In this document: piece by piece, positions 3,761 to 31,815 of the stretch
Position numbering within the stretch: position 1 is the first letter of the stretch
Layout of the letters: each line of letters begins with the position of its first letter
Program-made: the position numbers and the translations under genes
IMG/VR virus record: IMGVR_UViG_3300009603_000035
Span: 1-31,827 of that record
Length of the DNA stretch: 31,827 nucleotides
From: a virus
Reading direction: 5' to 3' (one strand)
The notes under the pieces: model-generated
Told to the model about the DNA's origin: nothing
Databases searched by the model: none
Seen by the model: the letters and a program-made list of their open reading frames with translations, nothing else

Positions 3761-3771
3761 GAGAATTTATT

Positions 3772-5215: not shown

Positions 5216-5224
5216 GAGGAGTAA

Positions 5225-5731
5225 ATGCCTAAAAAATTTCCTGAATCTGTAAAACTTGAGGCTATGAAATTATTTGTAGCTGGGGATAAAACTGCTAAAG
5301 AAATAGCAGAAATAATATCCAAAGAAAATAACACAGAAGTGAAGCCTGTGACTATTTATTCATGGGCGAAGCAATATAGTTGGGGTGAGCAGAAAGATGT
5401 TGCAAGATTTGATAATCAACAAGAAATAGCTGAATCAGAAGCGCAGAGATATCATAGAGTGCAACAGGAACAGCTTGAGAGGTATACAGAAGTATCTAAT
5501 AAAGCGTTTAAAGAATTAGGTGGGTTACCTTTTGATAGGGCTTTTGATGCTATAAAGGCTATAGATATAGGCATTAAAGGGCAAAGGGATGTTTTATCTG
5601 GACTGATAAATTTACAATTCGTTCAGGACGTTTTAGGGATTCTAGTTGAAGAGATACCCGATCAGGATATTTTAAATAAGATAGCCGTTAAATTAAAAAC
5701 TTTAGTACAAAATCAGGAGGAAGATAAATAG
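5225..5731 (+). CDS. terS: terminase small subunit-like HTH protein
   Basis: A 168-residue protein immediately upstream of the large terminase. Residues 5-55 form a helix-turn-helix-like unit (GDKTAKEIAEIIS...VKPVTIYSWAKQYSW) like those of many phage small terminases, followed by a long charged helical segment suited to ring oligomerisation and a C-terminal acidic helix. It would recognise the packaging site and regulate the motor. The start has a perfect AGGAGG site. The call relies on position plus HTH, since small terminases diverge strongly. Confidence 0.78.
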   Translation: MPKKFPESVKLEAMKLFVAGDKTAKEIAEIISKENNTEVKPVTIYSWAKQYSWGEQKDVARFDNQQEIAESEAQRYHRVQQEQLERYTEVSNKAFKELGGLPFDRAFDAIKAIDIGIKGQRDVLSGLINLQFVQDVLGILVEEIPDQDILNKIAVKLKTLVQNQEEDK

Positions 5732-5733
5732 CC

Positions 5734-7401: not shown

Positions 7402-7418
7402 CATTGGAGGATAAGAGG

Positions 7419-9353
7419 ATGACAAGCGTTGCTACAACAACATTAACAACACATAATAAGGCTTTATCAAAGCAGGCGGAAACAATCTTAGAACATAGGT
7501 ATTTATTAAAAGATACAAAGGGAAATGTTGTTGAAGATAGCAATACATTGTTTAAAAGAGTTGCTAAAGCAATTTCTTCTGTAGAAACTAATTACTACAC
7601 TTTACCGGTAGAAACGGAGTTAGTTGAAAACGACTTTTTTGAAATGCTTTCTAATCTTGAATTCATACCCAATTCCCCAACTTTAATGAATGCTGGAACA
7701 GAGCAGGGAACCTTATCCGCATGTTTCGTTCTACCTTTAGAAGATTCGATGGAAGGTATTATGAAAGCCGCTACTGACACAGCTATGGTACAAAAGTTTG
7801 GTGGTGGAACCGGATTCTCGCTCTCAAAAATTAGACCTAAAGGATCTAAAATTAAAACCACTCACGGAATTGCGTGTGGCCCGATAGAAGTATTAAAAAC
7901 ACTTTCACGGGTTTCCTCTATGATAACTCAAGGAGGTAAACGTGATGGAGCGAATATGGCTGTTATGTCTGTTTATCATCCTGATATTTTGGAGTTTATT
8001 ACTTGTAAGTCTAATGAAGGGGATATTCATAATTTCAATATATCAGTGGGAGTTGATTCACATTGGATGGATTGTGTGGTAAATGGATTAGATTATACTT
8101 TAATTAATCCCCATGATAACACGGTAGCCGGAAAATTAAATGCGGAGGATGTATTTAATAAGATAGTTGAGGGGGCGTGGAAAAACGGCGAACCAGGAAT
8201 GATTTTCTTAGATCAAGTCAATACAGACAATCATGTATCTGAAACTTACGGGGAAATGATTGCTACCAACCCATGTGGTGAGCAGCCTCTCTTAGGAAAT
8301 GAATCTTGTAATTTAGGTTCAATTAATCTAGCACAGTTTTATAGTAATAGGGATTTACAACTTGTAGAGGAACCCGTATGGAAAGCTCAAATAAACTGGG
8401 AAAGATTACAAAAAGTAACCCGTTTATCAACCAGGTTTCTAGACAATGTAATAGACGCTAATCACTATGCGACTCCTGACATAGAGCATATGACTAAAGC
8501 TACTCGAAAGATCGGTTTAGGGGTAATGGGATTTGCAGATTTATTAATTCAACTTAGAATTCCATATAATTCCGAAACAGCTAGAGAAGTTGGAAATGAA
8601 ATAATGTCCAAGATTAAAGAATGGGCTGATAATGAATCTTTGGATCTCGGTTCTCAAAGAGGAGCTTTCCCTGCTTGGGAAGATAGTACATTTAATAAAA
8701 ATTCCGAAATATACAGGAATCATTGTCGCTTGACTGTTGCTCCGACAGGGACAATATCTATGTTAGCCGATTGCTCAAGTGGGATAGAACCAACATTTGC
8801 ATTAGCCTGGAAGAAACAAAACATTTTAGAAGGTAAATCCTTTAATTATGTAAATAAGTATTTTGAATCGGATGCTAAAGAATACGGTTTTTATTCACAA
8901 GGGTTGATGGAGTATCTTGCTAATGGGGGTTCATTACAAGAATCCCAATATAATATACCCACATGGGTAAAAAATGTTTATATTACTTCCCCAGACATTT
9001 CACCGGAAGATCATGTATTAATGCAATCCACATTCCAAAAACATGTAGATTCTGGAATCTCTAAAACTATTAATTTTGCAAATAAAGCGTCAGTAGATGA
9101 TGTTAAAAATGCTTATATGTTAGCGTGGGATATGAAATGTAAAGGTATTACTGTGTATAGAGCCGGAAGTAGGGAGAAGGAAGTTTTAGTTAAAGGAACA
9201 AATGCAGGTAATCAATTAGAATTTACCTTACCGTTAACGAAAGAAGAAAATCAAACAAATACAGAGGATTGTTGCGCTAATCCATACATAGTGATGGAAT
9301 CAGGTTGTGAGACTTGTAAGGCTTGTGGCTTCAGTGCTTGTGTCATTGCTTAG
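7419..9353 (+). CDS. nrdJ: class II (adenosylcobalamin-dependent) ribonucleotide reductase
   Basis: A 644-residue enzyme that reduces ribonucleotides to deoxyribonucleotides for phage DNA synthesis. NPCGEQPLLGNESCNLGSIN carries the thiyl-radical Cys (C286), catalytic Glu (E288) and C297; C102 in GTLSACFVLP is the likely partner of C297 in the reducing disulfide. FGGGTGFSLSKIRPKG is a class II signature. The C-terminal cysteines (DCC, SGCETCKACGFSAC) would shuttle electrons from an external thiol protein. No N-terminal ATP cone is seen. I start at ATG 7419, eight bases after GGAGG (7406-7410); an upstream TTG at 7404 overlaps that site and is rejected. Confidence 0.95.
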   Translation: MTSVATTTLTTHNKALSKQAETILEHRYLLKDTKGNVVEDSNTLFKRVAKAISSVETNYYTLPVETELVENDFFEMLSNLEFIPNSPTLMNAGTEQGTLSACFVLPLEDSMEGIMKAATDTAMVQKFGGGTGFSLSKIRPKGSKIKTTHGIACGPIEVLKTLSRVSSMITQGGKRDGANMAVMSVYHPDILEFITCKSNEGDIHNFNISVGVDSHWMDCVVNGLDYTLINPHDNTVAGKLNAEDVFNKIVEGAWKNGEPGMIFLDQVNTDNHVSETYGEMIATNPCGEQPLLGNESCNLGSINLAQFYSNRDLQLVEEPVWKAQINWERLQKVTRLSTRFLDNVIDANHYATPDIEHMTKATRKIGLGVMGFADLLIQLRIPYNSETAREVGNEIMSKIKEWADNESLDLGSQRGAFPAWEDSTFNKNSEIYRNHCRLTVAPTGTISMLADCSSGIEPTFALAWKKQNILEGKSFNYVNKYFESDAKEYGFYSQGLMEYLANGGSLQESQYNIPTWVKNVYITSPDISPEDHVLMQSTFQKHVDSGISKTINFANKASVDDVKNAYMLAWDMKCKGITVYRAGSREKEVLVKGTNAGNQLEFTLPLTKEENQTNTEDCCANPYIVMESGCETCKACGFSACVIA

Positions 9354-9370
9354 GTAATTAACATAATTTG

Positions 9371-9380
9371 AGTATAATAA
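9371..9380 (+). promoter_or_regulatory. AGTATAATA promoter-like motif upstream of glutaredoxin
   Basis: AGTATAATAA lies in the only sizeable gap between reductase and glutaredoxin, 18 bases before the ATG at 9399, with a TATAAT core at 9373-9378. No TTGACA-like -35 box is visible at the expected distance. The same nonamer occurs before genes at 14,131, 15,011 and 22,810, which suggests a phage-specific promoter class. Confidence 0.5.
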
Positions 9381-9398
9381 GATTAACTGGGAGAATTT

Positions 9399-9635
9399 AT
9401 GGGGGTAATAATATATACATCCAATGGTTGTGCTCCATGCATGGCTACGAAATCTTGGTTAGGCAAAAATAATATTTCATATACAGAAAAAAATATTACA
9501 GAGGAAGAAAATAGGAAAGAACTCATTCAGAAGGGTTATCAATCAACACCGGTAACAATGATACAAAATGAGGGGGATATAACTTACATAGTAGGTTATA
9601 ACGTTAGGAAATTAGAACAAGCTTTTAGTATATAG
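9399..9635 (+). CDS. glutaredoxin/NrdH-like redoxin
   Basis: A 78-residue thioredoxin-fold thiol reductant. The N-terminal strand IIYTSNGCAPCMATKSWL has the redox CxxC (CAPC, residues 11-14), and QSTPVTMI supplies the cis-proline TPV typical of glutaredoxins; the tail YIVGYNVRKLEQAF resembles the GF/GY...L region of NrdH. Directly downstream of the class II reductase, it probably regenerates that enzyme's C-terminal cysteines. It has GGGAG seven bases before the ATG and its own candidate promoter. Confidence 0.9.
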   Translation: MGVIIYTSNGCAPCMATKSWLGKNNISYTEKNITEEENRKELIQKGYQSTPVTMIQNEGDITYIVGYNVRKLEQAFSI

Positions 9636-9648
9636 AGGAGAATTAATA

Positions 9649-10101
9649 ATGCCTATAGGAAACATGTTAGCTGGTGGAGAACTACAATACGTAGCATTAC
9701 AGGATGAAGCGGGAACGTGGAGGATATTAGATACATGGCATGATGACCTTAAGCAGGTTGATGCAGATGCTGACATTTCGGATGATAGTCCAGCAGTATC
9801 CGTACTTTCAGAGGGTCAGTTTCATGCTCTAGTAAAAGAAGCCGGTAGATTAGGGGTTTTACAAAACGCTAATCATGGGATAAACGAGGCGGAATTAGCT
9901 GAATTAGATGAGGGGATATTAAAAAGGGATGAAGATATACAATCTTTACATAACCAAATAACAAAACTAAAAGAAGAAAAAAATCAACGGGCACGCGACA
10001 CCTCACCCACAAATGATTATGAATTAAAAGAAAAAGCTATGAACACAATATTAAAATTAGTTTCAATACAGGACATGACCAATTTAGGCGATAAGGAATG
10101 A
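9649..10101 (+). CDS. hypothetical coiled-coil protein upstream of portal
   Basis: A 150-residue unrecognised protein. The first 35 residues look beta-rich (ELQYVALQDEAGTWRILDTW), followed by an acidic linker and a long coiled coil (about residues 80-115, EGILKRDEDIQSLHNQITKLKEEKNQ), then a short terminal helix. A strong AGAGGAG precedes the start. It sits between the glutaredoxin and portal genes and is spaced four bases from the portal, so it is presumably co-translated with head genes. A structural or assembly role is likely only by position. Confidence 0.75.
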   Translation: MPIGNMLAGGELQYVALQDEAGTWRILDTWHDDLKQVDADADISDDSPAVSVLSEGQFHALVKEAGRLGVLQNANHGINEAELAELDEGILKRDEDIQSLHNQITKLKEEKNQRARDTSPTNDYELKEKAMNTILKLVSIQDMTNLGDKE

Positions 10102-10105
10102 TTAT

Positions 10106-12001
10106 ATGAAGTTGTCAAAATACCTTCCCCAGGTTCCAAAAATGACACAACAGATGGCTGATTTAAATAAGCAGATTAGTTTGTTGGATGTGATGAAAGC
10201 AAGTGGAGACACTAATGTTGCGCCTACTATAGGGTTAGACCATGTAGTTAATACTTGGATACGCCATCAAATGGCCTATAGACAGCAACTTGTACAAGAT
10301 TTACAAACAATAGCCATGTCTGTAGAGGAGATTAGGGGGCCTTTGTCTCATATAACAAGTGAGGTTTTTAGGCGGGGATTGGAGTTTGTCCCAACTGTAG
10401 AAAATCCAGATATGGAACAAAAAGAAAAACTTAAGACCTGGACAGCAGATTGTAATGTATTTGACCAAAGTATAGAGGAAGTGTTACGACAGTTCCATTT
10501 CGATGTAAATTCTCTTGATGATGGTTTCTTATATTTAGCTAAGGAATATACAGATATGGGGGATGGTAAGGTTACCGCTAGGATGCAGGAGATTAGACGT
10601 TTAAATCCAGCTTTAATGGAATTCGATCTTGATACCGTGGGATTACCCAAAAACTCCCATTTCCTTTGCCCTATACATAGAGAAAATGTACATGAAGCTT
10701 CAGGGACATGTGAAAAGGATAATTGTGATATTGAATTACATCCTGCAATGTATAAGTATTACCACAGAAATAAACACATGTATTTTACAGATAGTGAGGT
10801 TATTCACCTATCTAAATTCTCTCCCACTGAAACATATGGTTGGAGTCCACTACTTACTATTTTTGAAAAAGCTTTAACATTAGTGGGTATGGATAAGAAT
10901 CTCTATAGGTATTTCTTTGAGAGGAAGATGCCAGCGGCTATGTTAATGGTAACTACGGATGACCCAGAATCATTGCGTAGAGAACGAGAGCATATAGCGG
11001 CTCAAACTCGGATAGATCCTAACTATATACCAATGGTAGCTGTATCTGCCAGGAATCAAAGGGGCCGTGTTGATTTGGTTCGTTTATTCCACACCCTTCA
11101 GGAGATGGATTATCTCCCTGTTCGAGATGAAATTAGAGAAAGGGTGGCGGCAATGTGGGGGGTAACCCCAGCTTGGCAGGGAGCACCTGAAGCTTTCGGA
11201 GGATTATCAAGTCAAACACAGCAATTAGTTGTTATGAGTCGTGTAGTAGAAGGTGACCAAAGATTATTCCATGAAAAGATTTTCCCTCAGTTATTAAAAG
11301 CATTTGGAATCACAGATTGGGAAATAAAACTCCCCAATCCAGAAGAGAAGGCGGAGAACACCAGATTATCATTTGCACAACAGAAAATTCAAATTGTTAA
11401 TCAGTTTGCTCAACTCGGCTTTGATATCAAGTTAAAGGAACAAGATGTGGATATATGGGAGGCTGATTTTGTTGTTAGTGGGGAATATGTACCTACAGCT
11501 AAATTAGCTGGAGAGCAGTTAGCTATGGGTATTGAACAACAACGTCAGTTATTAGAGGAGCCTGAAGAAATAGTTGAGGAGGAGGAAGATATACAGTTAA
11601 TGAGTAAAGCTATACCCAAACATAAACGTAAGTTTAAAGGTAGAACTGGTGGCGTAACTCCTAATTGGGCAGATAAAGCACCAAATGAGGAAAGAGATAT
11701 AGATGAATACGCAGAAGCTAGAGCTAAAAAGAATGAATTAACACTATCTAAATCCTGGATTGAATCATTAAGTTATCAAGGATTCACATCGCCGGTTATA
11801 AAAGAGATAACTTCAGATATGAGTAAAATGTGGTTTTCCCAAAATGATATTGAATATGTAGCTAATTTATCGCCTACAGGTGTTACTCATATTGAAAAAG
11901 CGGTATTTACAGATCCTAAGAAATTTAAGCGTAAAAGCAACAAACAGGAAAAAAACATTACCAAGCAATTGGCGGAAGTTGATGCTGGAATAGATTTTTA
12001 A
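10106..12001 (+). CDS. portal protein
   Basis: A 631-residue portal forming the DNA channel at one head vertex. The central part has the portal pattern: VIHLSKFSPTETYGWSPL, a long helix MDKNLYRYFFERKMPAAML, and the clip/stem-like stretch LPVRDEIRERVAAMWGVTPA followed by GGLSSQTQQLV. An insertion around residues 188-212 contains CPIHRENVH...CEKDNC, a possible zinc site. The last 130 residues after an acidic run (EEIVEEEEDIQ) are basic and unlike a minimal portal, perhaps interior-facing. Position after terminase and before scaffold/capsid supports the call. Confidence 0.9.
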   Translation: MKLSKYLPQVPKMTQQMADLNKQISLLDVMKASGDTNVAPTIGLDHVVNTWIRHQMAYRQQLVQDLQTIAMSVEEIRGPLSHITSEVFRRGLEFVPTVENPDMEQKEKLKTWTADCNVFDQSIEEVLRQFHFDVNSLDDGFLYLAKEYTDMGDGKVTARMQEIRRLNPALMEFDLDTVGLPKNSHFLCPIHRENVHEASGTCEKDNCDIELHPAMYKYYHRNKHMYFTDSEVIHLSKFSPTETYGWSPLLTIFEKALTLVGMDKNLYRYFFERKMPAAMLMVTTDDPESLRREREHIAAQTRIDPNYIPMVAVSARNQRGRVDLVRLFHTLQEMDYLPVRDEIRERVAAMWGVTPAWQGAPEAFGGLSSQTQQLVVMSRVVEGDQRLFHEKIFPQLLKAFGITDWEIKLPNPEEKAENTRLSFAQQKIQIVNQFAQLGFDIKLKEQDVDIWEADFVVSGEYVPTAKLAGEQLAMGIEQQRQLLEEPEEIVEEEEDIQLMSKAIPKHKRKFKGRTGGVTPNWADKAPNEERDIDEYAEARAKKNELTLSKSWIESLSYQGFTSPVIKEITSDMSKMWFSQNDIEYVANLSPTGVTHIEKAVFTDPKKFKRKSNKQEKNITKQLAEVDAGIDF

Positions 12002-15933: not shown

Positions 15934-17268
15934 ATGGCTAATCCAAGTCTATCAGAATATCTGGCGCAGTCCAAACGAGGATTGTATCAGTCAGTATTTG
16001 GTGAAGAGTATCTGCAAAAGCAGTCATACTTTACCGTTGATACTGCTACAGGTATTTTTAACACAACTTATGGACGAAAAGTCTGGCAGGCTCTAAACAA
16101 CCAAACCAGATTTTTCAACGCTATTCCCCGCGTCGTATGGGGAAACACAGCAGGTTGGAGGGTAAGGACCGATAGAGGTTCCGGACGTTCACGACCTGTA
16201 ACTGAGACTGGAACTCTACCAACAGTAGATGTCTCTAATATAGAAACAGTTCAGAGTTTACCTAGAATTGTTTCAACCACTTTCGGTGCTTCCGTGAAGT
16301 CAGTCTTCACAGCACAATTAGAGGGTGGTGTTGGAGATGTTCTGGCACTGGAGAACGAAAATGCTCAGTTAGACCACATCAAGGAAATAAATGAAGAAAT
16401 AATGGCTGGTTCAGCTTATTTAACATCTGCTGGAGCAACGACTTCATTCACAGTTCCTGCTGCTATTGCAAAACACTTCAAAATTGGAGATGCAGTATCG
16501 CAGTATGACGTTTCGGCAACTGGACACGATAGAACTTCTGGTTCTGCTGTATCCGCAGTTAACACCTCAACTGGTGTAGTTACCGTAGCTTCTGGCACAA
16601 CCTTTGCTGACGGTGACGTAGCATACATATATTCCAGAGCTGGAATGACTTCAATTGACGACATCGTCTCTGAAGACGGTGCTGCTGTTGGTGGTGGTGT
16701 TGCTAGAACAAGAGCTTATGACCTAACATTAGCAGGCAGAACTGCTGGTGATTGGGATGCTGGTGCTTCCGTATCATATAACAGTGGTACAGGAAGGTCT
16801 CTATCTTTGAATTTGATAGATACAGCTATACAGAAAGTAAGGCAGAATGGTGGAGAGCCAAAACTAATACTTTTGGGTCACGATCAATATTTCAATCTTG
16901 AAAGATTGCTCAACTCTAACCAAAGGTATATGGGACAAGAAGAATATCAAGTTGGCGTAGGATCCGAACGGACCTATCCAGGTACTAGAACAGGACTTGT
17001 TTTAGCTACTTATCAGGGTATTCCGATACTCCCAGATGCTGATGTGCCTAAATCTGTATCTACAGCAGATGCTGTTCTAGGTTCTAACGTCTATGTACTC
17101 GATACGGATTATATAGAGGTGGCTGTGGCTCAGCCTACTCAATATATAGAGAACAGGGATTACTTCGCTGCTAATGCTCTAGTGGTACGGGGCTTGCTCT
17201 ATACCATGGGTGAGATGCGATGTAAGAATATTTGGGTGCAAGCTAAGATTGCCGATCTTAGTGCATAA
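15934..17268 (+). CDS. major capsid protein, HK97 fold
   Basis: A 444-residue shell protein. The N-terminal arm is followed by E-loop-like sequence (GWRVRTDRGSGRSRPVTETGTLPTV; longer than quoted elsewhere), a spine-type helix (ALENENAQLDHIKEINEEIM), and a P-domain/A-domain C-terminus with GEPKLILLGHDQYFNLERLL and YQGIPILPDADVP, patterns common in HK97-type capsids. Residues about 165-235 form a Ser/Thr/Val-rich insertion (VSATGHDRTSGSAVSAVNTS) likely to be a surface beta domain. A GGAGG site precedes the ATG and a strong hairpin follows the stop. Codon use is less AT-biased than neighbours, fitting high expression. Confidence 0.9.
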   Translation: MANPSLSEYLAQSKRGLYQSVFGEEYLQKQSYFTVDTATGIFNTTYGRKVWQALNNQTRFFNAIPRVVWGNTAGWRVRTDRGSGRSRPVTETGTLPTVDVSNIETVQSLPRIVSTTFGASVKSVFTAQLEGGVGDVLALENENAQLDHIKEINEEIMAGSAYLTSAGATTSFTVPAAIAKHFKIGDAVSQYDVSATGHDRTSGSAVSAVNTSTGVVTVASGTTFADGDVAYIYSRAGMTSIDDIVSEDGAAVGGGVARTRAYDLTLAGRTAGDWDAGASVSYNSGTGRSLSLNLIDTAIQKVRQNGGEPKLILLGHDQYFNLERLLNSNQRYMGQEEYQVGVGSERTYPGTRTGLVLATYQGIPILPDADVPKSVSTADAVLGSNVYVLDTDYIEVAVAQPTQYIENRDYFAANALVVRGLLYTMGEMRCKNIWVQAKIADLSA

Positions 17269-24437: not shown

Positions 24438-24629
24438 ATGGATAGATTATTCGGTAACCCAGAACATCCCCCTAGAGATGAGGATATACCAGTAATTGTG
24501 CATGATAATGATAAACCATTAATGATGCCAGCTAATATTTTATCCTTAGCATTAGAACGAGGTTGGTTAAAGGGAAAGGAACAGATGGATAAAGGAGGTT
24601 CACTGACACACAACAACGTACCAAATTAG
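24438..24629 (+). CDS. hypothetical small protein, first gene of accessory operon
   Basis: A 63-residue protein. I chose ATG 24438, ten bases after AAGGAG; a TTG at 24432 is too close to that site. The sequence has a Pro/acidic start (NPEHPPRDEDIPVIVHDNDK) and one helix (PANILSLALERGWLKGKEQM). No family recognised. Being first behind a promoter with an operator-like palindrome, it could be an early regulator or host-interaction protein, by context only. Confidence 0.6.
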   Translation: MDRLFGNPEHPPRDEDIPVIVHDNDKPLMMPANILSLALERGWLKGKEQMDKGGSLTHNNVPN

Positions 24630-24681
24630 TTAATAAAAACAATGAAAAAGAAAAGATAAGATTATTTAAAGGAGAGTAAAG

Positions 24682-25698
24682 ATGATTACAGCACGGAAAC
24701 AATGGAATAGAACACAAACACAAAAATTAGAATTGGGGGATGAATTTATCCTGCCAGAAATAAATGGGAAAACCATCACAGGAATTGTCCAGGAAATTTC
24801 TCCTAGAGAAGCAGAGTATCTATTAAAAACTTCGGTAGGGAACAGGGGAACCAAAATAAATAGTTTGGGCAGACTAATAGAAGATATGGAAAGAGATGAG
24901 TATTTGGAGCATATTTTTGATCCAATTAGAATTTCAACCGAAGGTAGATTGCTGGATGGGCATCATAGGTTAGAAGCAATTAAAGAGTCAGGAGTTCCGC
25001 AAATTTTGCTTTGTTTGTATGGCTATACTATGGATGATATGGTTGTGTTTGATCAAAATAAAAATCGGACAACAGCAGATAACATGAAAATACAGGGGAA
25101 GGCTTATATTACCGAAAGAGCTTCTATCATAAAATGGATTTACTCAATGTTATATGATGCGGATCTGAGAGGATCGAATGCTAAAGGACCTAATAGAGCT
25201 ATAGTGCCTGGAAACAAGGACGCACAACGTATCAGTGATTACTTTTCAGGTGATGTGTGGCGATCTCAGATTTTGTGGTATAAAAATAATGTAAAAAGTT
25301 ATTATAAACTCTCAATAGGGCCTATTATTGCCGCAAAACTTTTGTATGACATTGTAAATCCCGAAGTGAGTGGAGATTTTTGGGATGGCGTGTTCCTTGG
25401 AAAAGATAACACTTATTTAGATGAGAATAAAGGTGATGCGAGAAACGCACTCCACACCAAACTTGTTAACGTGTCTAACCTAGATGATCCTAGTAGTATT
25501 CATAAAACTGACAGATATGCTTTAATAAAATGGATTCATTTTGCATGGATGAAGTTTGAAACAGGTCAACCAGTTCAACGAATGTCTGTACACAAACACA
25601 TTTATGATAGGGCTTGGATTGATATGCGTTTATTAGCCAAAAAACATTTTGTTATAGATTTCGGACAAAATAACTATTCCGGAAAGGTGTTACCTTAA
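24682..25698 (+). CDS. ParB-like N-terminal domain protein
   Basis: A 338-residue protein. Residues 35-105 match the ParB/sulfiredoxin-type fold: EISPREAEYLL, SLGRLIEDMERDEY, DPIRISTEGRLLDGHHRLEAI, with the nucleotide-binding GHHR at 93-96. Some relatives act as CTPases in segregation, others as nucleases or regulators of DNA modification. The helical C-terminal two thirds, ending in a Trp-rich section (ALIKWIHFAWMKFETGQPVQ), replaces the usual ParB dimer domain. AAGGAGAG precedes ATG. It could guide or partner the methyltransferase 3 kb downstream, which is speculation. Confidence 0.8.
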   Translation: MITARKQWNRTQTQKLELGDEFILPEINGKTITGIVQEISPREAEYLLKTSVGNRGTKINSLGRLIEDMERDEYLEHIFDPIRISTEGRLLDGHHRLEAIKESGVPQILLCLYGYTMDDMVVFDQNKNRTTADNMKIQGKAYITERASIIKWIYSMLYDADLRGSNAKGPNRAIVPGNKDAQRISDYFSGDVWRSQILWYKNNVKSYYKLSIGPIIAAKLLYDIVNPEVSGDFWDGVFLGKDNTYLDENKGDARNALHTKLVNVSNLDDPSSIHKTDRYALIKWIHFAWMKFETGQPVQRMSVHKHIYDRAWIDMRLLAKKHFVIDFGQNNYSGKVLP

Positions 25699-25772
25699 TG
25701 TCTAAACAAGTTACCTACCCTAAATGTAGAGGCTGGATATGTAACGAAGGCATAGGAGAACAAAATGAATGA
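25698..25772 (+). CDS. possible 24-residue peptide
   Basis: ATG overlaps the ParB-like stop (TAATG), and the stop overlaps the next ATG. The peptide MSKQVTYPKCRGWICNEGIG has two Cys. The tight overlap at both ends suggests translation as part of the operon, but the length is so short that chance is equally likely. It has no separate ribosome site. Confidence 0.3.
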   Translation: MSKQVTYPKCRGWICNEGIGEQNE

Positions 25773-25965
25773 GGTCGACGTAGATGAGATTATAAAAACC
25801 ATCAAAGACATTATTTATATAGAAGATTTAAAAAGGCAATCCGTACCTCGTATAGCTGGGAAGGGGCGGTTAGATTCCTTAAAAATCCTACAAGAATTAG
25901 AATCACAACTCCTAAAGAGATTTGAGAGTTTTAAAGTTGAGGAGAGTAATGGGGAAACAAAATAA
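25765..25965 (+). CDS. hypothetical helical protein
   Basis: A 66-residue charged helical protein with GGAG seven bases before ATG. SLKILQELESQLLKRFESF is probably amphipathic. The segment AGKGRLD is encoded by a GGAAGGGG octamer at 25859, the first exact copy I found in the window. It overlaps the next gene by 17 bases. Unknown function. Confidence 0.6.
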   Translation: MNEVDVDEIIKTIKDIIYIEDLKRQSVPRIAGKGRLDSLKILQELESQLLKRFESFKVEESNGETK

Positions 25966-26155
25966 ATGTTCAAAATGCCAAGGATTTTTATTCCTGGAAA
26001 CAGATAATAATGGTAAGTATTATAAATGTTTAAATTGTGGTTTCTATGACAATATATATTTTAATATTGGTATTCAAACCGTAAAGCAGTTATCTAAGAG
26101 AATCGCAGTTCAACCCACATCAAAATGGGGTTTAAATTATAAAGGAAATAAGTAA
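25949..26155 (+). CDS. zinc-ribbon protein
   Basis: A 68-residue protein with a four-Cys ribbon, CSKCQGFLFLETDNNGKYYK followed by CLNCG, and a C-terminal tail without obvious fold. I chose ATG 25949 after GGAG; a longer in-frame start at 25922 lacks support. It stops directly before the next ATG. Such single ribbons often bind nucleic acid or act as protein adaptors. Confidence 0.7.
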   Translation: MGKQNKCSKCQGFLFLETDNNGKYYKCLNCGFYDNIYFNIGIQTVKQLSKRIAVQPTSKWGLNYKGNK

Positions 26156-26452
26156 ATGACAATAGCAACAGATAGAATATTAAAGTATAAGGAAAACAAT
26201 CCGACAGCTAGTTTAAGATCTATAGGGAAGGCAGTAGAAACTTCTCATGAGTACGTTAGATTAGTATTAAAACAACACGATATAAGTACCCAGTATGTGA
26301 GAAATGAACGTGTATATTGCGCTATAGATGATTGTAATAATGTATTATCCACATATCAAAAGAGACATACTAAAATGTGTACTATTTGTAGAAGGCGCTT
26401 ATTAAGAATACAAAAAGCACAAAGAGATTTTATTTTTTCCGATGGTAAGTAG
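26156..26452 (+). CDS. HTH plus zinc-finger DNA-binding protein
   Basis: A 98-residue protein. Residues 16-45 form a helix-turn-helix (TASLRSIGKAVETSHEYVRL), resembling the Resolvase/Sigma-4-type HTH, followed by YCAIDDC and MCTIC cysteine pairs, likely one zinc site, and a basic tail RRRLLRIQKAQR. Probably a transcription regulator. It begins immediately after the preceding stop and is in the early-type zinc-ribbon run. Confidence 0.75.
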   Translation: MTIATDRILKYKENNPTASLRSIGKAVETSHEYVRLVLKQHDISTQYVRNERVYCAIDDCNNVLSTYQKRHTKMCTICRRRLLRIQKAQRDFIFSDGK

Positions 26453-26456
26453 TAAG

Positions 26457-26615
26457 ATGGAAATAAGAAACGATTCATTTGAAAATCCTCAAACCATTAA
26501 TTGTCCAAATGATAGATGTGAAGAGGAAATTAAAGAAACGGATACAAAATGCCCCACTTGTTTTTGTGATGTTAGGGGAGTAATAAAGGCAAAGGAGTTA
26601 TTATTATGGGATTAG
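26457..26615 (+). CDS. zinc-ribbon protein
   Basis: A 52-residue protein with C16-x4-C21 (INCPNDRCEEE) and C32-x2-C35 (KCPTCFC), a four-Cys zinc ribbon. There is no strong ribosome site beyond GTAAG, and it begins two bases after the previous stop, so coupling is likely. It overlaps the next gene by ten bases. Too short to place in a family. Confidence 0.62.
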   Translation: MEIRNDSFENPQTINCPNDRCEEEIKETDTKCPTCFCDVRGVIKAKELLLWD

Positions 26616-26803
26616 ATTTTTCTCAGCTTGACCCACAGATAGAAGAATGGGTGAAGAGGTTGAAGGAAGAGGAAGATAATAAGATACATGAGAAGGAGGC
26701 GGATTGGAAGACATGTGGGGAGTGTGGAGAACTTAGATATCAGGATGCTAGAGTCGAAGGTGGTCTAAAGTGTGGGCATTGTACTTATGAGGGAATGTCA
26801 TAA
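26606..26803 (+). CDS. zinc-ribbon protein
   Basis: A 65-residue protein with an acidic helical N-terminus (QIEEWVKRLKEEEDNKIHEK) and a C-terminal ribbon CGECGELRYQDARVEGGLKC followed by GHC, i.e. CxxC...CxxC. AAAGGAG precedes ATG. Its stop overlaps the next ATG. Similar layout to its neighbours but no obvious sequence identity beyond the cysteines. Confidence 0.68.
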   Translation: MGLDFSQLDPQIEEWVKRLKEEEDNKIHEKEADWKTCGECGELRYQDARVEGGLKCGHCTYEGMS

Positions 26804-27027
26804 TGGAAGATATTAATGAAGGATATATAAAGGTAACTGTGGAATATGAATTTCCTAAAAAGTATACTCCTCCACGCGACTCAAATTTAAATGGTGAATG
26901 GCCTAGAGAAAATTGGGAAGAAGGGGATTTAAATTGGAATGAAATTCTAAAAGATGTTGTTTATAGAAGATCCATAAAAGTGGAGAAAGATAAGAAAACA
27001 TTATTTACCAAGTTAATGTTAACGTAG
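26803..27027 (+). CDS. hypothetical protein
   Basis: A 74-residue protein, TAATG-coupled to the preceding gene with GAGGGA upstream. It has a beta-like start (GYIKVTVEYEFPKKYTPP), a Trp-rich acidic middle (GEWPRENWEEGDLNWNEIL) and a final basic strand. No Cys. Unknown function. Confidence 0.62.
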   Translation: MEDINEGYIKVTVEYEFPKKYTPPRDSNLNGEWPRENWEEGDLNWNEILKDVVYRRSIKVEKDKKTLFTKLMLT

Positions 27028-27040
27028 GAAAGATAGAAAA

Positions 27041-27271
27041 ATGCGCGAAGTACCATCAAAAATATTAAGGAAGCGTTTGCTAACTATAATGGTAGATGAT
27101 TTTTGGGAAGCTAAAGAAAGAGAATTAAATGCCAACATCTACGATATCACCACCACAAAAACCCAGGTGACGCAATACATTAAAAAGTTAAGGGAGAGGT
27201 GGGAAGACGTAGAGTTGTTTTGGAAGGACTATGCTTTGTATTGGGAAGGAAGGGGTTATAGTAATGGTTAA
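27041..27271 (+). CDS. hypothetical helical protein
   Basis: A 76-residue charged, Trp-rich helical protein (FWEAKERELNANIYDITT; YIKKLRERWEDVELFWKDY). GGAAAG precedes the start. Its 3' end (EGRGYSNG) is encoded by a GGAAGGGG octamer at 27248 that also serves as the ribosome site of the next gene. Unknown function. Confidence 0.62.
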   Translation: MREVPSKILRKRLLTIMVDDFWEAKERELNANIYDITTTKTQVTQYIKKLRERWEDVELFWKDYALYWEGRGYSNG

Positions 27272-27485
27272 GGACGGGGAGATAATAGATATATCCCAGT
27301 ACAGGAATACAGAACAGATGGAAGACTGGCAGGAGGACATGAGACATCCAATAGAGGCACTTATAGATGCCAGAAGAGACCAGGCTACTACCTTTAATTA
27401 TTTAGAAGCTTTAGATGTAATACATCTTAAGATGAATACTTTAGAGAACAGGATAAAGGCTTTGGAAGAGGGAAGGGGGGATTAG
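27264..27485 (+). CDS. hypothetical coiled-coil protein
   Basis: A 73-residue protein. I chose ATG 27264, nine bases after GGAAGGGG. It has a beta-like N-terminus (MVKDGEIIDISQYR) and a C-terminal coiled coil (LDVIHLKMNTLENRIKALEE). The last codons (GRGD) contain another GGAAGGGG copy at 27471. It overlaps the previous gene by eight bases. Unknown function. Confidence 0.62.
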   Translation: MVKDGEIIDISQYRNTEQMEDWQEDMRHPIEALIDARRDQATTFNYLEALDVIHLKMNTLENRIKALEEGRGD

Positions 27486-27489
27486 AGAT

Positions 27490-27777
27490 ATGATGTTCCA
27501 TACTCGTTGTACTTGTCGAACCTGCTGGAGAGATGCTTTCTGTAGACACCAACAGGATGAATTCTTATATAACAATATTGAAGACATGAGTCAGGCACAC
27601 CGAGAACTACATTACAACACAATCAATTTATTTTCTGATGGTGATATATGTAATGTGAAAGTTTGTTCGTTTTGTGATGCTATAACTAAACACTGTACTA
27701 ATTCAGATGAATGTATCTACAGAAGAGGTTATGAAATATGGGATTCATCATTGGAGGAGGATGGGGTAGTTGCCTAA
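27490..27777 (+). CDS. Cys-rich probable zinc-binding protein
   Basis: A 95-residue protein with two cysteine clusters: CTCRTCWRDAFCRH (C7, C9, C12, C18, H20) and CNVKVCSFCDAITKHC with further Cys in NSDEC. This could hold two zinc sites. The G-rich run at 27471-27480 precedes the start. Its end is followed by 54 A-rich bases before the next gene. No family recognised. Confidence 0.68.
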   Translation: MMFHTRCTCRTCWRDAFCRHQQDEFLYNNIEDMSQAHRELHYNTINLFSDGDICNVKVCSFCDAITKHCTNSDECIYRRGYEIWDSSLEEDGVVA

Positions 27778-27831
27778 CTACACCAAAAATAAATAAAGAA
27801 ATAATGATAATAGAAAAGAAGGAGCTAAGTA

Positions 27832-28572
27832 ATGACAAGACGTAAAACTCGCAATACCAGAGCGTCTTTGGATGCGATAGCCGCAATAGAGCGATTAAAA
27901 AAGAGTACCGGGATGACAAGTGCAGAGATATTGGATGATGCTTTAAAGAATTATTCAGAAGCGGATACTTCATCTCTATCTGAACAAAAAGCCTTTAAAC
28001 AATCGGTAATTGGGCAAGCATTAGAGACCCCATGGGTAAAAGATGCTATTGCAGCTATACCGCAGATTAACAACGATGAGAAGTTAAGGAAACAATACAG
28101 GGCTGAATTTCGTAAAGACCTTCAGGATGATCCTAGGTACATTAGGTTAGATAATACGAAACCACCAAATGTAATTATCGACGCTGCTATAGTAAGCCTG
28201 TGGAGAGATAAGCCCGGAGATAAATCTCGTAAAGATGTCCTCGAGTTTGTAATAAAACAGATGCAAGCTCCAACAATGGATATCCGACCTAATTGGCTAA
28301 GCCCAACATGGGCAACTTATCCCGGCACCAGTAAGTGGTTTGATTCTCATACGAAGTATAAAGGCAAGTTTGAGTTAACAGTGAATAACCGGATCAATGC
28401 CTTAATACGAAATCAGATTCTCGAACCCGTCAAAGGCTCCAGGGGTATGTATAAACTCTTTCGCAATCTTCTTCAGGATGAATGGGACAGAATTGATGGG
28501 ATACAAAAGTTGACTCCTCAAAGAGGGATAGTCATACCAAATTTTTGGAAGAGGACTAGGTTAGTTGCCTAA
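27832..28572 (+). CDS. probable DNA-binding protein, RHH-like N-terminus
   Basis: A 246-residue protein. Residues 10-45 look like a ribbon-helix-helix unit (TRASLDAIAAIERLKKSTG, then MTSAEILDDALKNY). The remainder has a helical part and a basic C-terminal half (NNRINALIRNQILEPVKGSR, MYKLFRNLL) that could be winged-helix. AAGGAG precedes ATG. It may be a repressor or regulator of the accessory genes. The last 100 residues are less AT-biased in codon use than nearby genes. Function is inferred from the N-terminal motif only. Confidence 0.68.
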   Translation: MTRRKTRNTRASLDAIAAIERLKKSTGMTSAEILDDALKNYSEADTSSLSEQKAFKQSVIGQALETPWVKDAIAAIPQINNDEKLRKQYRAEFRKDLQDDPRYIRLDNTKPPNVIIDAAIVSLWRDKPGDKSRKDVLEFVIKQMQAPTMDIRPNWLSPTWATYPGTSKWFDSHTKYKGKFELTVNNRINALIRNQILEPVKGSRGMYKLFRNLLQDEWDRIDGIQKLTPQRGIVIPNFWKRTRLVA

Positions 28573-28759
28573 GTATGAATATATATGTGACAACTGTGAG
28601 GAAGGGGTATTTTGGTTAAAGCAGTCTTTCAGTTCAAAGCCGGTAGCAGATTGCCCGAATTGTGGGAAGGCATGTAAAAGGAAAATCAGCCAGGTATCTG
28701 TAGTGTTTAAGGGATCCGGCTGGTATGTGAATGATAATAGAAAAGAAAAGGAAGAATAA
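28565..28759 (+). CDS. FmdB-like zinc-ribbon protein
   Basis: A 64-residue protein with the FmdB/CxxC_CxxC_SSSS pattern: MPKYEYICDNCEEGVFWLKQ, then DCPNCGKACKRKIS, then VVFKGSGWYVND. The TTG start at 28565 is chosen because the family begins MPxYEYxC; no ATG fits. It overlaps the previous stop by eight bases. Family members are small regulators or adaptors; the exact role in phages is unknown. A GGAAGGGG copy at 28600 encodes EEGV. Confidence 0.85.
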   Translation: MPKYEYICDNCEEGVFWLKQSFSSKPVADCPNCGKACKRKISQVSVVFKGSGWYVNDNRKEKEE

Positions 28760-28760
28760 A

Positions 28761-29657
28761 ATGAGTTATATTAAAAAAGCGGATGTAACAGGAAAAACTA
28801 AAGAAGTTTTAGATTCTGCACGAGACTTTAATTTTAAAGATCGTTTTGGCACAATTCCAAAATCAATAATGAAATTTAAAAAAACTGAAGAATTAATGTC
28901 ATTAATTAATTATGATAATTCTGAACTTGGAAAGATTGAAGGGAAAGCAGTTGCTAGAGGAGGTGGTTATGCAAAATCTATTAGATATTCAATATATAAC
29001 CCAGACCAAGCGCATTTTATCTTAGATTATTATACTAAACCAAATGACCTTATACTTGATCCATTCTGTGGTAGAGCTACAAGACCATTAGTTTCATTAT
29101 TTTTAAATAGGAGATATATTGGGTGTGATATTTCTAAAGAAACAGTAGAATTGAATAAGGAATTAATCATTGAAAAAATGCCCCATAAAAAAGAAAAGGT
29201 AGATTGGGGTATCCTTAATGAAGATGGGATTTATTTAAAAACGCTTGATAATAAAAAAGATTATGTTGATGGAATTTTTACTTGTCCCCCATATTATAAT
29301 ATTGAAAAATATGGTGGGGAAGTAGGAGATTTAAGCAGAAAATCCTATTCTTCATTTAATGACAGTATACAGATTTTATTTGAGACTCTATATAGATTAA
29401 TAAAACCTTCTAATTATAAAACACTTGAATTCCATCCAGTTATTTTAACTGTGGGATCAGTTAGGAAAGGGGCTTCTGGTTTAATAGATATGGATTATAT
29501 CTTTCAAAATATCGCTTTAAAGTGTGGTTTTGTATTACACGATAAATTATTTACAGAAAACATTACCCCAGGAGCTGGTTTTACTTTTAGGAGAAATTAT
29601 TGTTATTCTTATGTTACAAAAAATTTTGAAACAACTCTTATATTTTTAAAATATTAA
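28761..29657 (+). CDS. DNA methyltransferase (N4-cytosine/N6-adenine type)
   Basis: A 298-residue AdoMet-dependent enzyme. Motif I DPFCGR (residues 100-105) is followed by strand YIGCDISKETVELN, and motif IV is TCPPYYN (174-180); RYSIYNPDQAHFILDYY before motif I resembles motif X. The I-then-IV order and (T)CPPY fit an amino-methyltransferase, target not predictable. AAGGAAGA supports ATG 28761 over an in-frame ATG at 28731. Codon use is markedly AT-rich and it lacks GGAAGGGG copies, unlike the genes either side, hinting at later acquisition. It may protect phage DNA from host restriction. Confidence 0.88.
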   Translation: MSYIKKADVTGKTKEVLDSARDFNFKDRFGTIPKSIMKFKKTEELMSLINYDNSELGKIEGKAVARGGGYAKSIRYSIYNPDQAHFILDYYTKPNDLILDPFCGRATRPLVSLFLNRRYIGCDISKETVELNKELIIEKMPHKKEKVDWGILNEDGIYLKTLDNKKDYVDGIFTCPPYYNIEKYGGEVGDLSRKSYSSFNDSIQILFETLYRLIKPSNYKTLEFHPVILTVGSVRKGASGLIDMDYIFQNIALKCGFVLHDKLFTENITPGAGFTFRRNYCYSYVTKNFETTLIFLKY

Positions 29658-29658
29658 A

Positions 29659-29690
29659 TTGACAATGGATTTGATTTAGTTATGGATTAC
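29659..29690 (+). promoter_or_regulatory. possible promoter downstream of methyltransferase gene
   Basis: TTGACA at 29659-29664 begins right after the methyltransferase stop. The best -10 candidates are TATGGA at 29681 (16-base spacing) or TGGATT at 29683 (18-base spacing), both poor, so only the -35 box is convincing. It would drive the genes rich in GGAAGGGG. GAGGA for the next gene follows at once. Confidence 0.35.
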
Positions 29691-29701
29691 GAGGATACCA
29701 A

Positions 29702-29896
29702 ATGAAGAAAGTTAATGGAAGCATAGGAAGGGGCCACGAGGTAGGAGCCTATTCGTTAATGAGCTTTATAGTATGGGAAGGGGAGGAAGAGGAAGCGTGC
29801 CAGGCGTTAAAAGGTTTGGTGGGAAGGGTTAAAGTACAACAATTTAATAACTCAATTATGACAGGAGAGTACATTGCTGAAGTCTCTAATAAATAA
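29702..29896 (+). CDS. hypothetical small protein
   Basis: A 64-residue protein with GAGGA upstream. It is Gly-rich at the start (SIGRGHEVGAYSL), then has an acidic stretch (WEGEEEEACQAL) and a beta-like end (YIAEVSNK). Exact GGAAGGGG octamers at 29726 and 29776 encode GRG and WEG respectively, in different frames, and a variant lies at 29822. It overlaps the next gene by 23 bases. Function unknown. Confidence 0.58.
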   Translation: MKKVNGSIGRGHEVGAYSLMSFIVWEGEEEEACQALKGLVGRVKVQQFNNSIMTGEYIAEVSNK

Positions 29897-30209
29897 TCTC
29901 TTAGGAAGGGGAAGGAACAAACAACCTTGGGAAGGGGAGGAAGAGGAGGAGGTTATAGTATTCACGGCTAGTGAGGGAGGGAAGGAATGGAAAAGGGATA
30001 ATATTCTAATCGTAGACAAGGGGATTACCGGCTGCTTAGTATACATATATAACCAAGATGAAATAACTTCTCTATGGCCTGAAGAGCTATATTTAAGAGC
30101 ACATGAAGATACAATCATATGTGACGTTCCCAACCTAGTTGTGTTAAGGGAATTTCTTACAAGACTTTATAACGACAGACCGCCAAGATTCTATACAGGG
30201 AATTATTAA
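29874..30209 (+). CDS. hypothetical protein, probable TTG start
   Basis: A 111-residue protein. The TTG at 29874 follows AGGAGAG (29863-29869) by four bases; no ATG is available near the start of the frame. N-terminal residues are basic and low complexity (LGRGRNKQPWEGEEEEE), partly due to GGAAGGGG copies at 29904 and 29930; the rest (NILIVDKGITGCLVYIYNQD, EELYLRAHEDTIICDVPNLV) looks like an alpha/beta fold. Unrecognised. Confidence 0.6.
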   Translation: MLKSLINNLLGRGRNKQPWEGEEEEEVIVFTASEGGKEWKRDNILIVDKGITGCLVYIYNQDEITSLWPEELYLRAHEDTIICDVPNLVVLREFLTRLYNDRPPRFYTGNY

Positions 30210-30210
30210 T

Positions 30211-30549
30211 ATGTCATTTAAAATAGTAGATAGGACAGGGTTTGAAATTAAATTAGATAATGGCTGGACAATTGCAGCTAGGTTTGGCTCCACCGCTTAC
30301 TGTAGTAACAACACATCTTTGAGTGGTGGGAAGGAGCAACTCGAAGTTAATCTTCAGGGGGAGTCTTGGGAAGGGGCTAATGTGGAAGTACGGGCATTTA
30401 CCAATAACAAGGAATATATATTTCAACAAACCGGGAAGCCTTACAAAGGTTGGGTAGGGGTAGAGGAGTTTATATCCTTTGTTACTATGGTAAGTCACTG
30501 GCCGGACAGTAAATATAACTGGCCTAGCTCCGTTGCCCCTTGTTCTTAG
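30211..30549 (+). CDS. hypothetical beta-rich protein
   Basis: A 112-residue protein starting just after the previous stop. It has a strand-rich N-terminus (FKIVDRTGFEIKLDNGWTIA, ARFGSTAYCS), the segment SWEGANVEVRAF (GGAAGGGG at 30369), and a C-terminal WVGVEEFISFVTMVSHWPD helix. Its TAG stop is the start of TAGGAAGGGGAAGGGG, which serves as the ribosome site of the next gene. Unrecognised. Confidence 0.6.
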   Translation: MSFKIVDRTGFEIKLDNGWTIAARFGSTAYCSNNTSLSGGKEQLEVNLQGESWEGANVEVRAFTNNKEYIFQQTGKPYKGWVGVEEFISFVTMVSHWPDSKYNWPSSVAPCS

Positions 30550-30564
30550 GAAGGGGAAGGGGTA

Positions 30565-31065
30565 ATGAATACTCAAACTGATAACCATACTAAATTCCTA
30601 TCTCATTTAGATTCAAGCATAGATACTATGTTTATAGCTGCCCGACTTTTATATAACAACGGTTATTCAGTTAAGATAAATCAGATGACCAGGGCACAAA
30701 AGCATAATGATTGGAAGAGGCACGCAGATGCTGGGGATCTAACAATCTTGATACATGAGGAAGGGGAGCTACCAACGGAAGAGAGGATTGAGGTAAAGGG
30801 GTTATCTATAGACTTCACAAATGAAAACGACTGGAAGTATAAAGATTTTATAGTATGCGCTACCCATTCATATGACAGGGCAACATTAAAGCCTTACGCT
30901 TATATGATCTTTAACAGAAACAAAACTCACTGTGCCATAGTCTATGGAAGGGACAAAGATAAATGGACTATTGGGAAGAGGGTCGATACCAGGTACAAAG
31001 GGATAGAGCAGCAGTTTTACTTTAGCCCTTTTGAATATGTGAGGTGGAAGGAAGTAAGCATCTAG
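30565..31065 (+). CDS. PD-(D/E)XK-like nuclease
   Basis: A 166-residue protein. HADAGDLTILI (D58) followed by RIEVKGLSIDF (E76-x-K78) and YKDFIVCATH gives the D...ExK pattern of restriction-endonuclease-like folds. An N-terminal helix (SSIDTMFIAARLLYNNGYSV) precedes the core. A DNA-targeting nuclease is likely; the substrate is unknown. Its start follows a doubled GGAAGGGG, one octamer lies inside (30759, EEGE), and its TAG stop runs directly into the octamer array. Distinct from the nucleases at 2.8-3.8 kb. Confidence 0.6.
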   Translation: MNTQTDNHTKFLSHLDSSIDTMFIAARLLYNNGYSVKINQMTRAQKHNDWKRHADAGDLTILIHEEGELPTEERIEVKGLSIDFTNENDWKYKDFIVCATHSYDRATLKPYAYMIFNRNKTHCAIVYGRDKDKWTIGKRVDTRYKGIEQQFYFSPFEYVRWKEVSI

Positions 31066-31271
31066 GAAGGGGAAGGGGTCTGGGAAGGGGACTTAGGAAG
31101 GGGACTTAGGAAGGGGACTTAGGAAGGGGCGGTTCATAACCAGGAAGGGGCAGATTTATAAACATTGGGAAGGGGATCGTATTGATTCTGGGAAGGGGCA
31201 ATATATGAAACCTGGGAAGGGGCAATTTTAGGAACTTGGGAAGGGTCAAAAATCGAGTTATTGGGAAGGGG
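31065..31271 (+). repeat. GGAAGGGG octamer array
   Basis: Eleven exact GGAAGGGG copies in 207 bases, starting at 31065, 31071, 31083, 31096, 31109, 31122, 31143, 31168, 31191, 31215 and 31264, plus a variant ending in T at 31239. From 31083 the unit GGAAGGGGACTTA repeats three times at 13 bases; from 31122 onward copies are 21-25 bases apart with unrelated AT-rich spacers, usually as TGGGAAGGGGC. All on one strand. The spacers are not conserved and repeats are too short for CRISPR. Possible iteron, Chi-like or protein-binding array. Confidence 0.95.
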
Positions 31272-31284
31272 CAATTTTCCGGAT

Positions 31285-31614
31285 TTTTTAGCCTAACAAA
31301 TATAAGACAAGTTTAAGACAAGTTTAAGACATATGTTAATCACATTTTTAAACAAGTATAAAATTTTTCTCAAACAAAGATTAATTATTTCCCGACTAAA
31401 TAAAATATTTGTTTAAACTTTTGAGTAACAAAAAATCTAATAACAGTTTCAAAAAAATCTAATACATGTATAATTTTTTAATTGGTATGGATTACAAAAA
31501 TATTAACCAGGGATTTACCGCATTATACAGGCGTTAACATACTGATCTAGTTATTTTTAATTACCTGGATAACATAGGATTTATTTTTACTAGTATAAAA
31601 ATAGATTAAAACAC
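31285..31614. other. AT-rich non-coding region with direct repeats, possible origin
   Basis: About 330 bases without a supported gene on either strand. It holds tandem AAGACAAGTTT (31304-31314, 31315-31325, with a partial third AAGACA), a pair of AAAAAATCTAATA (31430-31442 and 31452-31464, 22 bases apart), and several TATAAT/TATAAA-like strings. With the G-rich octamer array on its left and a strong promoter on its right it resembles a replication-origin or early regulatory region. No hairpin terminator is seen. Confidence 0.45.
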
Positions 31615-31644
31615 TTGACATTAAGTTAATCTAGGCCTTAAAAT
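31615..31644 (+). promoter_or_regulatory. strong TTGACA/TAAAAT promoter
   Basis: TTGACA (31615-31620) and TAAAAT (31639-31644) are 18 bases apart; the same -10 and spacing as the promoter at 22,591. The predicted start (about 31651) is followed by AGAGGT and the ATG at 31666. It probably drives rightward transcription leaving the AT-rich region. Confidence 0.7.
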
Positions 31645-31665
31645 TCGGTATAGAGGTAAAAAACT

Positions 31666-31815
31666 ATGAATACATTAGCAATACACTGGCCTACTAGTAA
31701 CAAGCGAGATCCACACGAACCGCGTTTAGTCACACATTTAATCACAGATTCAAAACTTGATACGACAGATATAATCCATCAAAAATACTACGCTAAAAAA
31801 CGCATCAAGGTTTAA
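31666..31815 (+). CDS. hypothetical small protein behind strong promoter
   Basis: A 49-residue basic protein (MNTLAIHWPTSNKRDPHEPR ... YYAKKRIKV) with AGAGGT eight bases before ATG. It begins the transcription unit after the non-coding region. No recognisable family. Small basic products in first position of early phage operons often act on host machinery, which is only a contextual guess. Confidence 0.6.
   Translation: MNTLAIHWPTSNKRDPHEPRLVTHLITDSKLDTTDIIHQKYYAKKRIKV

Follow-up and report, generated by a model that had tools for sequence, protein, structure and literature searches.

A short polar purine-rich repeat as a possible joint of small-gene gain and loss in uncultured marine tailed phages

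The DNA analysed here, the IMG/VR virus record IMGVR_UViG_3300009603_000035 (31,827 nucleotides, hereafter the window), carries 23 exact copies of the purine octamer GGAAGGGG, all of them on the plus strand. This octamer is best explained, with a probability that we put at about 0.45, as the local form of a short, polar, purine-rich direct repeat at whose copies cassettes are gained and lost. The word probably acts as, or records, joints of small-gene gain and loss in uncultured marine tailed phages. The window is a single record of 31.8 kb, taken whole and itself incomplete, and "genome" refers below to that record only.

Each of the 23 positions given in an earlier note on this DNA was recovered as an exact GGAAGGGG on the plus strand, and counting over the whole window bore out its statements that the reverse complement is absent and that no copy lies upstream of 25,859. 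All copies stand downstream of the structural genes, and 81% of the window is free of the word. Dinucleotide shuffles gave a mean of 0.98 copies with a maximum of 4, while Markov models predicted 0.9-1.6 on the plus strand and about 0.1 on the minus strand; the claim of a count far above chance is thus well founded. Outside the terminal array, the stretch 25.7-31.06 kb still holds 12 isolated copies, whereas its own composition predicts 0.3-0.8. The reversed GGAAGGGG pattern was found five times on the plus and once on the minus strand. The earlier note had named even density, equal use of the strands and lack of conservation in close relatives as grounds for giving up its view, and none of these was observed: the strand ratio in the window is 23 to 0, and the feature persists in G039, a relative of 71.5 kb that is collinear with the window at ~91% identity. 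The eight copies of G039 are all on the coding strand, fall within 1.35 kb at the matching location and end in an array, and ~98% of the sequence lacks the word. What had been presented as a property of the genome is a real pattern of narrower reach, seen in an incomplete record and with an exact octamer that is lineage-specific: the 38 relatives first tested hold 0-3 copies each, and 29 of them have none.

The enrichment resides in the DNA. Among peptides able to encode GGAAGGGG, 8 of 11 do so in 25.7-31.06 kb versus 0 of 7 elsewhere (p ~0.004); peptides of this type also occur at a density ~7.6 times higher in the motif region than in the rest of the window. Therefore, the DNA word imposes the residues. 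This agrees with the earlier proposal of selection on nucleic acid, and the readings that it had listed (GRG, GKG, EEG and WEG) were all found. A predicted start follows four of the 12 isolated copies at a distance of 8-25 nt (p ~0.002); their pairing with a standard anti-Shine-Dalgarno sequence, at -7.3 to -8.5 kcal/mol, is as strong as is usual in this phage. A ribosome-binding role, as once suggested, is borne out in part.

Comparison with G039 places several copies at the ends of indels, a feature that the earlier note had missed, as it had the change of word between relatives. For indel C (Table 1), the predicted deletion product equals G039 at 49/50 positions, and the chance of at least 7 bp of junction homology is 0.001 for random junctions. 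The ends of indel D share the 11-bp TTTGGAAGAGG, for which the chance of at least 11 bp is 2e-5. Indel F comprises three open reading frames (ORFs) between GGAAGGGG copies, and the G039 array begins exactly at GGAAGGG, in the copy at 29904, where its similarity to the window stops. Moreover, copies are paired by longer direct repeats of 17, 17 and 20 bp. Each copy of the 17-bp TAGGAAGGGGAAGGGGT provides the preceding gene with its stop codon, and the left copy alone also provides a ribosome-binding region; together they enclose a candidate cassette, and no matching empty site was seen for this pair. Of the 43 11-mers that are repeated within the motif region, 25 include part of the motif, and five comparison blocks of similar size hold just 4-21 repeated 11-mers each.

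Gene segments of this kind have been described before: the 1.35-kb LRRHood segment is bounded by 29-bp direct repeats, and short conserved boundary sequences occur (PMC3029335). The likeness lies in a gene segment between direct repeats with a single repeat copy in a relative; it is seen here in the deletion product of indel C and, as to the perfect flanking repeats, in the 17-bp pair around ORF 30565-31065. Unlike LRRHood-type segments, the same word family is found at several joints, is multi-copy and ends in an array. The PeSL mobile promoter cassettes of T4-like phages, which contain a promoter and a stem-loop and have a similar motif in HGTV-1, are likewise repeated intergenic elements tied to small-gene shuffling (PMC3950731), whereas the GGAAGGGG motif is purine-only, without promoter or stem-loop.

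Table 1. Positions of the octamer copies, longer repeats, indels and neighbouring features in the window
Feature	Position	Strand	Remarks
Terminal array	31065..31271	+	11 exact GGAAGGGG and 1 degenerate copy at 31,239 (GGAAGGGT); non-coding; directly after stop of ORF 30565-31065
Isolated copy	25859..25866	+	within ORF 25765-25965, read GKG; kept in G039
Isolated copy	27248..27255	+	C-terminal codons of ORF 27041-27271; Shine-Dalgarno position for gene starting 27264
Isolated copy	27471..27478	+	final codons of ORF 27264-27485; Shine-Dalgarno position for gene starting 27490
Isolated copy	28600..28607	+	within zinc-ribbon ORF 28565-28759, read EEG; kept in G039
Two isolated copies (29726, 29776)	29726..29783	+	within ORF 29702-29896; both kept in G039
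Two copies (29904, 29930)	29904..29937	+	just 3' of ORF 29702-29896 stop; G039 similarity stops at GGAAGGG here
Isolated copy	30369..30376	+	within ORF 30211-30549
Octamer 30759		+	inside ORF 30565-31065
17-bp direct repeat TAGGAAGGGGAAGGGGT, perfect, left copy	30547..30563	+	contains octamers 30549 and 30555; TAG is stop of ORF 30211-30549; Shine-Dalgarno of ORF 30565
17-bp direct repeat TAGGAAGGGGAAGGGGT, right copy	31063..31079	+	TAG is stop of ORF 30565-31065; opening units of array
Candidate cassette, 166-amino-acid ORF	30565..31065	+	bounded by 17-bp repeats; no family match; not in G039
17-bp repeat TCTTAGGAAGGGGAAGG	29899..29915	+	second copy 30544-30560
20-bp repeat TGGGAAGGGGAGGAAGAGGA	29774..29793	+	second copy 29928-29947
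Indel C, absent from G039	27067..27252	+	window-only 27,074-27,245; AAGGAAG at both ends (27067, 27246)
Indel D, absent from G039	27461..28554	+	window-only 27,477-28,543; TTTGGAAGAGG at both ends (27461, 28544)
Indel F, three ORFs, absent from G039	29911..31064	+	between GGAAGGGG copies
AT-rich non-coding stretch	31280..31660	.	3' of array; TAAGACAAGTT repeat, 2.6 copies, at 31303-31331
Promoter-like TTGACA-18-TAAAAT	31615..31644	+	11/12, consensus match only; upstream of small ORF 31666-31815
RecA-like gene	1883-2821
Cas4-like gene	3080-3760

The spacings of the copies in the terminal array are 6, 12, 13, 13, 13, 21, 25, 23, 24, 24 and 25 bp, and Tandem Repeats Finder resolved the array into 13-bp and 24-bp units. 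The RNA of the array shows no unusual fold (z ~0), and a structured RNA was rejected on this result; an Rfam search gave no match, a tRNA search was likewise empty, and no terminator-like match was found 3' of the array. A three-tier G-quadruplex motif is present once in the window array and in none of the arrays of G039, G035, L153 and L164, so that a G-quadruplex was rejected as a conserved property.

The window belongs to a tailed phage that encodes a family-A DNA polymerase, RecA-like protein, Cas4-like exonuclease, terminase, ribonucleotide reductase, portal and SU10-type capsid protein. IMG/VR holds many relatives of it. The records of the same virus (G001, G002, G043 and G044, 99.8-100%) all stop by 24.3 kb, before the motif region; therefore, that region rests on a single contig, backed by G039. 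Another contig, L377, carries the G039 array without change (99.9% over 8.3 kb, gapless). Used as queries, the last gene and the ParB-like gene returned no relatives, and no similarity to named phages was detected, either in the DNA or for the terminase. The nearest named counterparts of the capsid protein (window 15934-17268, SU10_MCP in Pfam) are those of haloarchaeal tailed viruses and a Methanofastidiosa virus, at only 26-32% identity. A DNA methyltransferase-like gene at 28764-29657 has no match in G039. In addition, TAGTTGCCTAA and AATGATAATAGAAAAGAA are repeated on both sides of the gene 27832-28572 (27763-27829 and 28559-28748), which makes a further cassette boundary without the purine octamer possible.

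Although the exact octamer is lineage-specific, its purine-rich core GGAAGG recurs, and distant relatives have polar GGAAGGRR clusters with altered letters (GGAAGGAA, GGAAGGAG). In G035, GGAAGGAA is found 24 times on the coding strand and never on the other, mostly within 21.0-27.6 kb, together with a terminal array of its own, and the co-directional genes run on beyond that array. The array of G039 closes a co-directional block of ~53 kb; the GC skew flips at this point and the next genes are convergent. L153 has 36 GGAAGG in the final 5.6 kb of its contig, mostly in the low-complexity C-terminal tail of a protein; the same arrangement was observed in L150, L255 and L164, and weakly in G038. 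The downstream stretches of L148, L149, L152 and L155 contain none on the coding strand. The arrangement is thus recurrent yet patchy, and the letters around GGAAGG change.

G039 contains three extra G-rich arrays, at 116-461, 2656-2986 and 71371-71506, built on the word GGAGGGGA, all 25 occurrences of which are on one strand. They are 55-65% G and share the strand of GGAAGGGG, despite the opposite direction of the flanking genes at 0.7-10.8 kb; GGAGGGGA is confined to its arrays, and only GGAAGGGG is scattered through genes. The G039 contig (L161 end) terminates inside the array 71371-71506, which suggests that such arrays break assemblies. An exact-array scan of IMG/VR with the tandem core gave no matches. 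A looser scan for three copies gave 96 loci, most of whose AT-rich members, on inspection, were coding-type periodic repeats (e.g., 15-bp units), and only L255 and L164 among the loci inspected were kin-like with polar arrays. The same three-copy scan of bacterial and archaeal genomes yielded diverse matches with no visible common host, as judged by titles.

Two other repeated elements were noticed in these relatives. Palindromes of the form TGTGA-N6-TCACA, with the shape of a CRP/FNR-like operator, cluster in L153 (8299-9454), L150 (8871-9155) and L158 of G039 (536-839, 3018-3106, 4330 and 4542); they number 6-10 per phage versus ~0.08 expected per 32 kb, and stand beside G-rich arrays at the gene-flux end. 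None is present in the window, G035 or G038. On the minus strand of L127 (G035), at ~2900-11000, a repeated promoter-like block with AAAACTTTTTTG lies upstream of many small genes.

In the mechanism that we favour, the repeat would occupy the gene-flux end of a long co-directional block, where local duplication or recombination may spread copies in patches of 8 to 20 bp. At a gene joint, a single patch could hold both the stop codon, or the last codons, of the upstream gene and the Shine-Dalgarno region of the downstream one. Copies that recombine or anneal with each other would then add or remove the small cassettes in between, and the differences from G039 may represent either gain or loss. 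The RecA-like protein and the Cas4/RecB-type exonuclease of the phage could promote such exchange; the presence of both genes in the window was counted in favour of this mechanism. The terminal array would be a concentrated expansion of the repeat at the 3' end of the block, beside a non-coding regulatory gap, whatever selected role it may have.

Several observations weigh against this explanation. Half of the isolated copies are intragenic and away from joints. G039 is the only relative close enough for the junction analysis, and the sample consists of three motif-associated indels. The path of indel D is ambiguous, as TAGTTGCCTAA also repeats at 27767/28562, and three further indels have no clear motif (24570-25726, 26058-26797 and the right end of 28757-29696). 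Finally, repeats cause indels anywhere, and therefore the junctions are no proof of the purpose of the repeat.

The main rival, which we consider unlikely, holds that selection maintains the word as a polar site bound by a protein or translocase of the phage or host, with isolated copies that steer or regulate and an array that acts as loading site. Strict polarity, the climb in density to the block end and the GC-skew switch, the variation of letters between relatives (as different partners would give) and the common strand of the four G-rich arrays of G039 are all in keeping with it. Known systems of this type offer partial parallels. The SAS elements of cluster K mycobacteriophages, whose function is unknown, have a fixed 13-bp consensus and lie almost all 3-7 bp from starts (PMC3203893). 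Like them, GGAAGGGG is a short asymmetric repeat in a single orientation, limited to the non-structural gene part, with some copies at ribosome-binding positions that overlap upstream stop codons. Unlike them, only 4/12 isolated copies are start-proximal, many are intragenic, there is a terminal array and close relatives differ in the letters; a fixed consensus beside the start at nearly every copy is not what is found here, as array and intragenic copies are not start-proximal. The stoperators of cluster A mycobacteriophages bind a known repressor, number 23-36 copies and are not described as arrays (PMC3029335). They share the asymmetry, the mostly intergenic or gene-end position, the single orientation relative to transcription and the copy number, whereas GGAAGGGG is arrayed, half of its isolated copies are intragenic and no repressor-like partner was found. 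KOPS (GGGNAGGG, PMC2680272) and AIMS (PMC5993296) are chromosome-wide signals acting with FtsK, and resemble the present word as G-rich polar octamers that are denser near the terminus. Moreover, GGGAAGGG, inside TGGGAAGGGG, matches the E. coli KOPS consensus, with 15 occurrences on the plus strand and none on the minus strand of the window, but G035 has GGAAGGAA instead. Here the signal is local and one-sided: copies are limited to the last 1.35-6 kb and not graded along the arm, and the opposite arm of G039 has no mirror-image copies. No FtsK/SpoIIIE above the cut-off, no tyrosine recombinase or other integrase family and no dif-like site exceeding shuffled maxima was found in the phage genomes searched (G039, G035 and G038 for the proteins), and the motif is lacking in the same region of several relatives. 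The ParB-like protein put forward earlier as a partner was rejected, as its gene is absent from G039, which keeps the motif.

It is improbable that slippage and short duplications simply expanded purine-rich DNA in the manner of a satellite, essentially neutral, serving no selected purpose and tolerated at the ends of genes and in gaps. Such an expansion would account for units whose sequence varies from one close relative to the next and, within G039, from one array to another (GGAAGGGG and GGAGGGGA), for the run of the L153 expansion through a low-complexity tail and for the tandem units of the window array; it sits poorly with exact octamers scattered over 5 kb in unrelated genes and frames, with a second G039 word that stays within its arrays, with the association with start sites and with the reappearance of the feature, in several divergent phages, at the end of the block. 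We find it doubtful that the array signals replication, R-loop formation or packaging, with non-template G-clusters beside an AT-rich, repeat-bearing gap. Such a gap does adjoin the window array, array windows reach 45-65% G in AT-rich genomes and the G039 array coincides with the GC-skew switch and the convergent junction, but G035 genes stay co-directional past its array, the G-quadruplex motif is not shared and the isolated intragenic copies are left unexplained. There is little to recommend an RNA-level element, either a decoy for the ribosome or a GGA-binding (CsrA-like) regulator or a control of the transcript 3' end: the transcript end is sense-strand, C-poor and GGA-rich (14-76 GGA per array), and an intrinsic terminator of L164, judged by eye (AAGGGGAAG...CTTCCCCTT followed by a T-run), apparently uses a motif copy as its 5' arm, yet the G039 array 2656-2986 lies in a gap between plus-strand genes with its G strand opposite, and neither a fold, an Rfam match nor a terminator supports the window array. 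A Chi-like host octamer that orients recombination, also raised in the earlier note, shares the polar G-rich character and is extremely improbable; it was rejected by its distribution, because a Chi site would be genome-wide, whereas no copy exists in the other 25.8 kb of the window or the other ~70 kb of G039 and density is not raised in relatives. We would also give only slight credence to a phage-encoded addressing system, with several same-strand arrays per genome, each with its own word, and scattered copies pointing to the block end, whose reader might be a DNA motor (a translocase for packaging or for host segregation) or a protein that binds with polarity and whose specificity differs between related phages.

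It has long been asked how small accessory genes enter and leave phage genomes without the help of site-specific recombinases, and gene junctions usually have no shared sequence. A recurring word is found here at several joints, it provides start and stop signals, and its letters differ from relative to relative, which makes the idea directly testable by strain sequencing. Should the arrays instead serve as binding sites, they would represent a fast-evolving polar signal of tailed phages.

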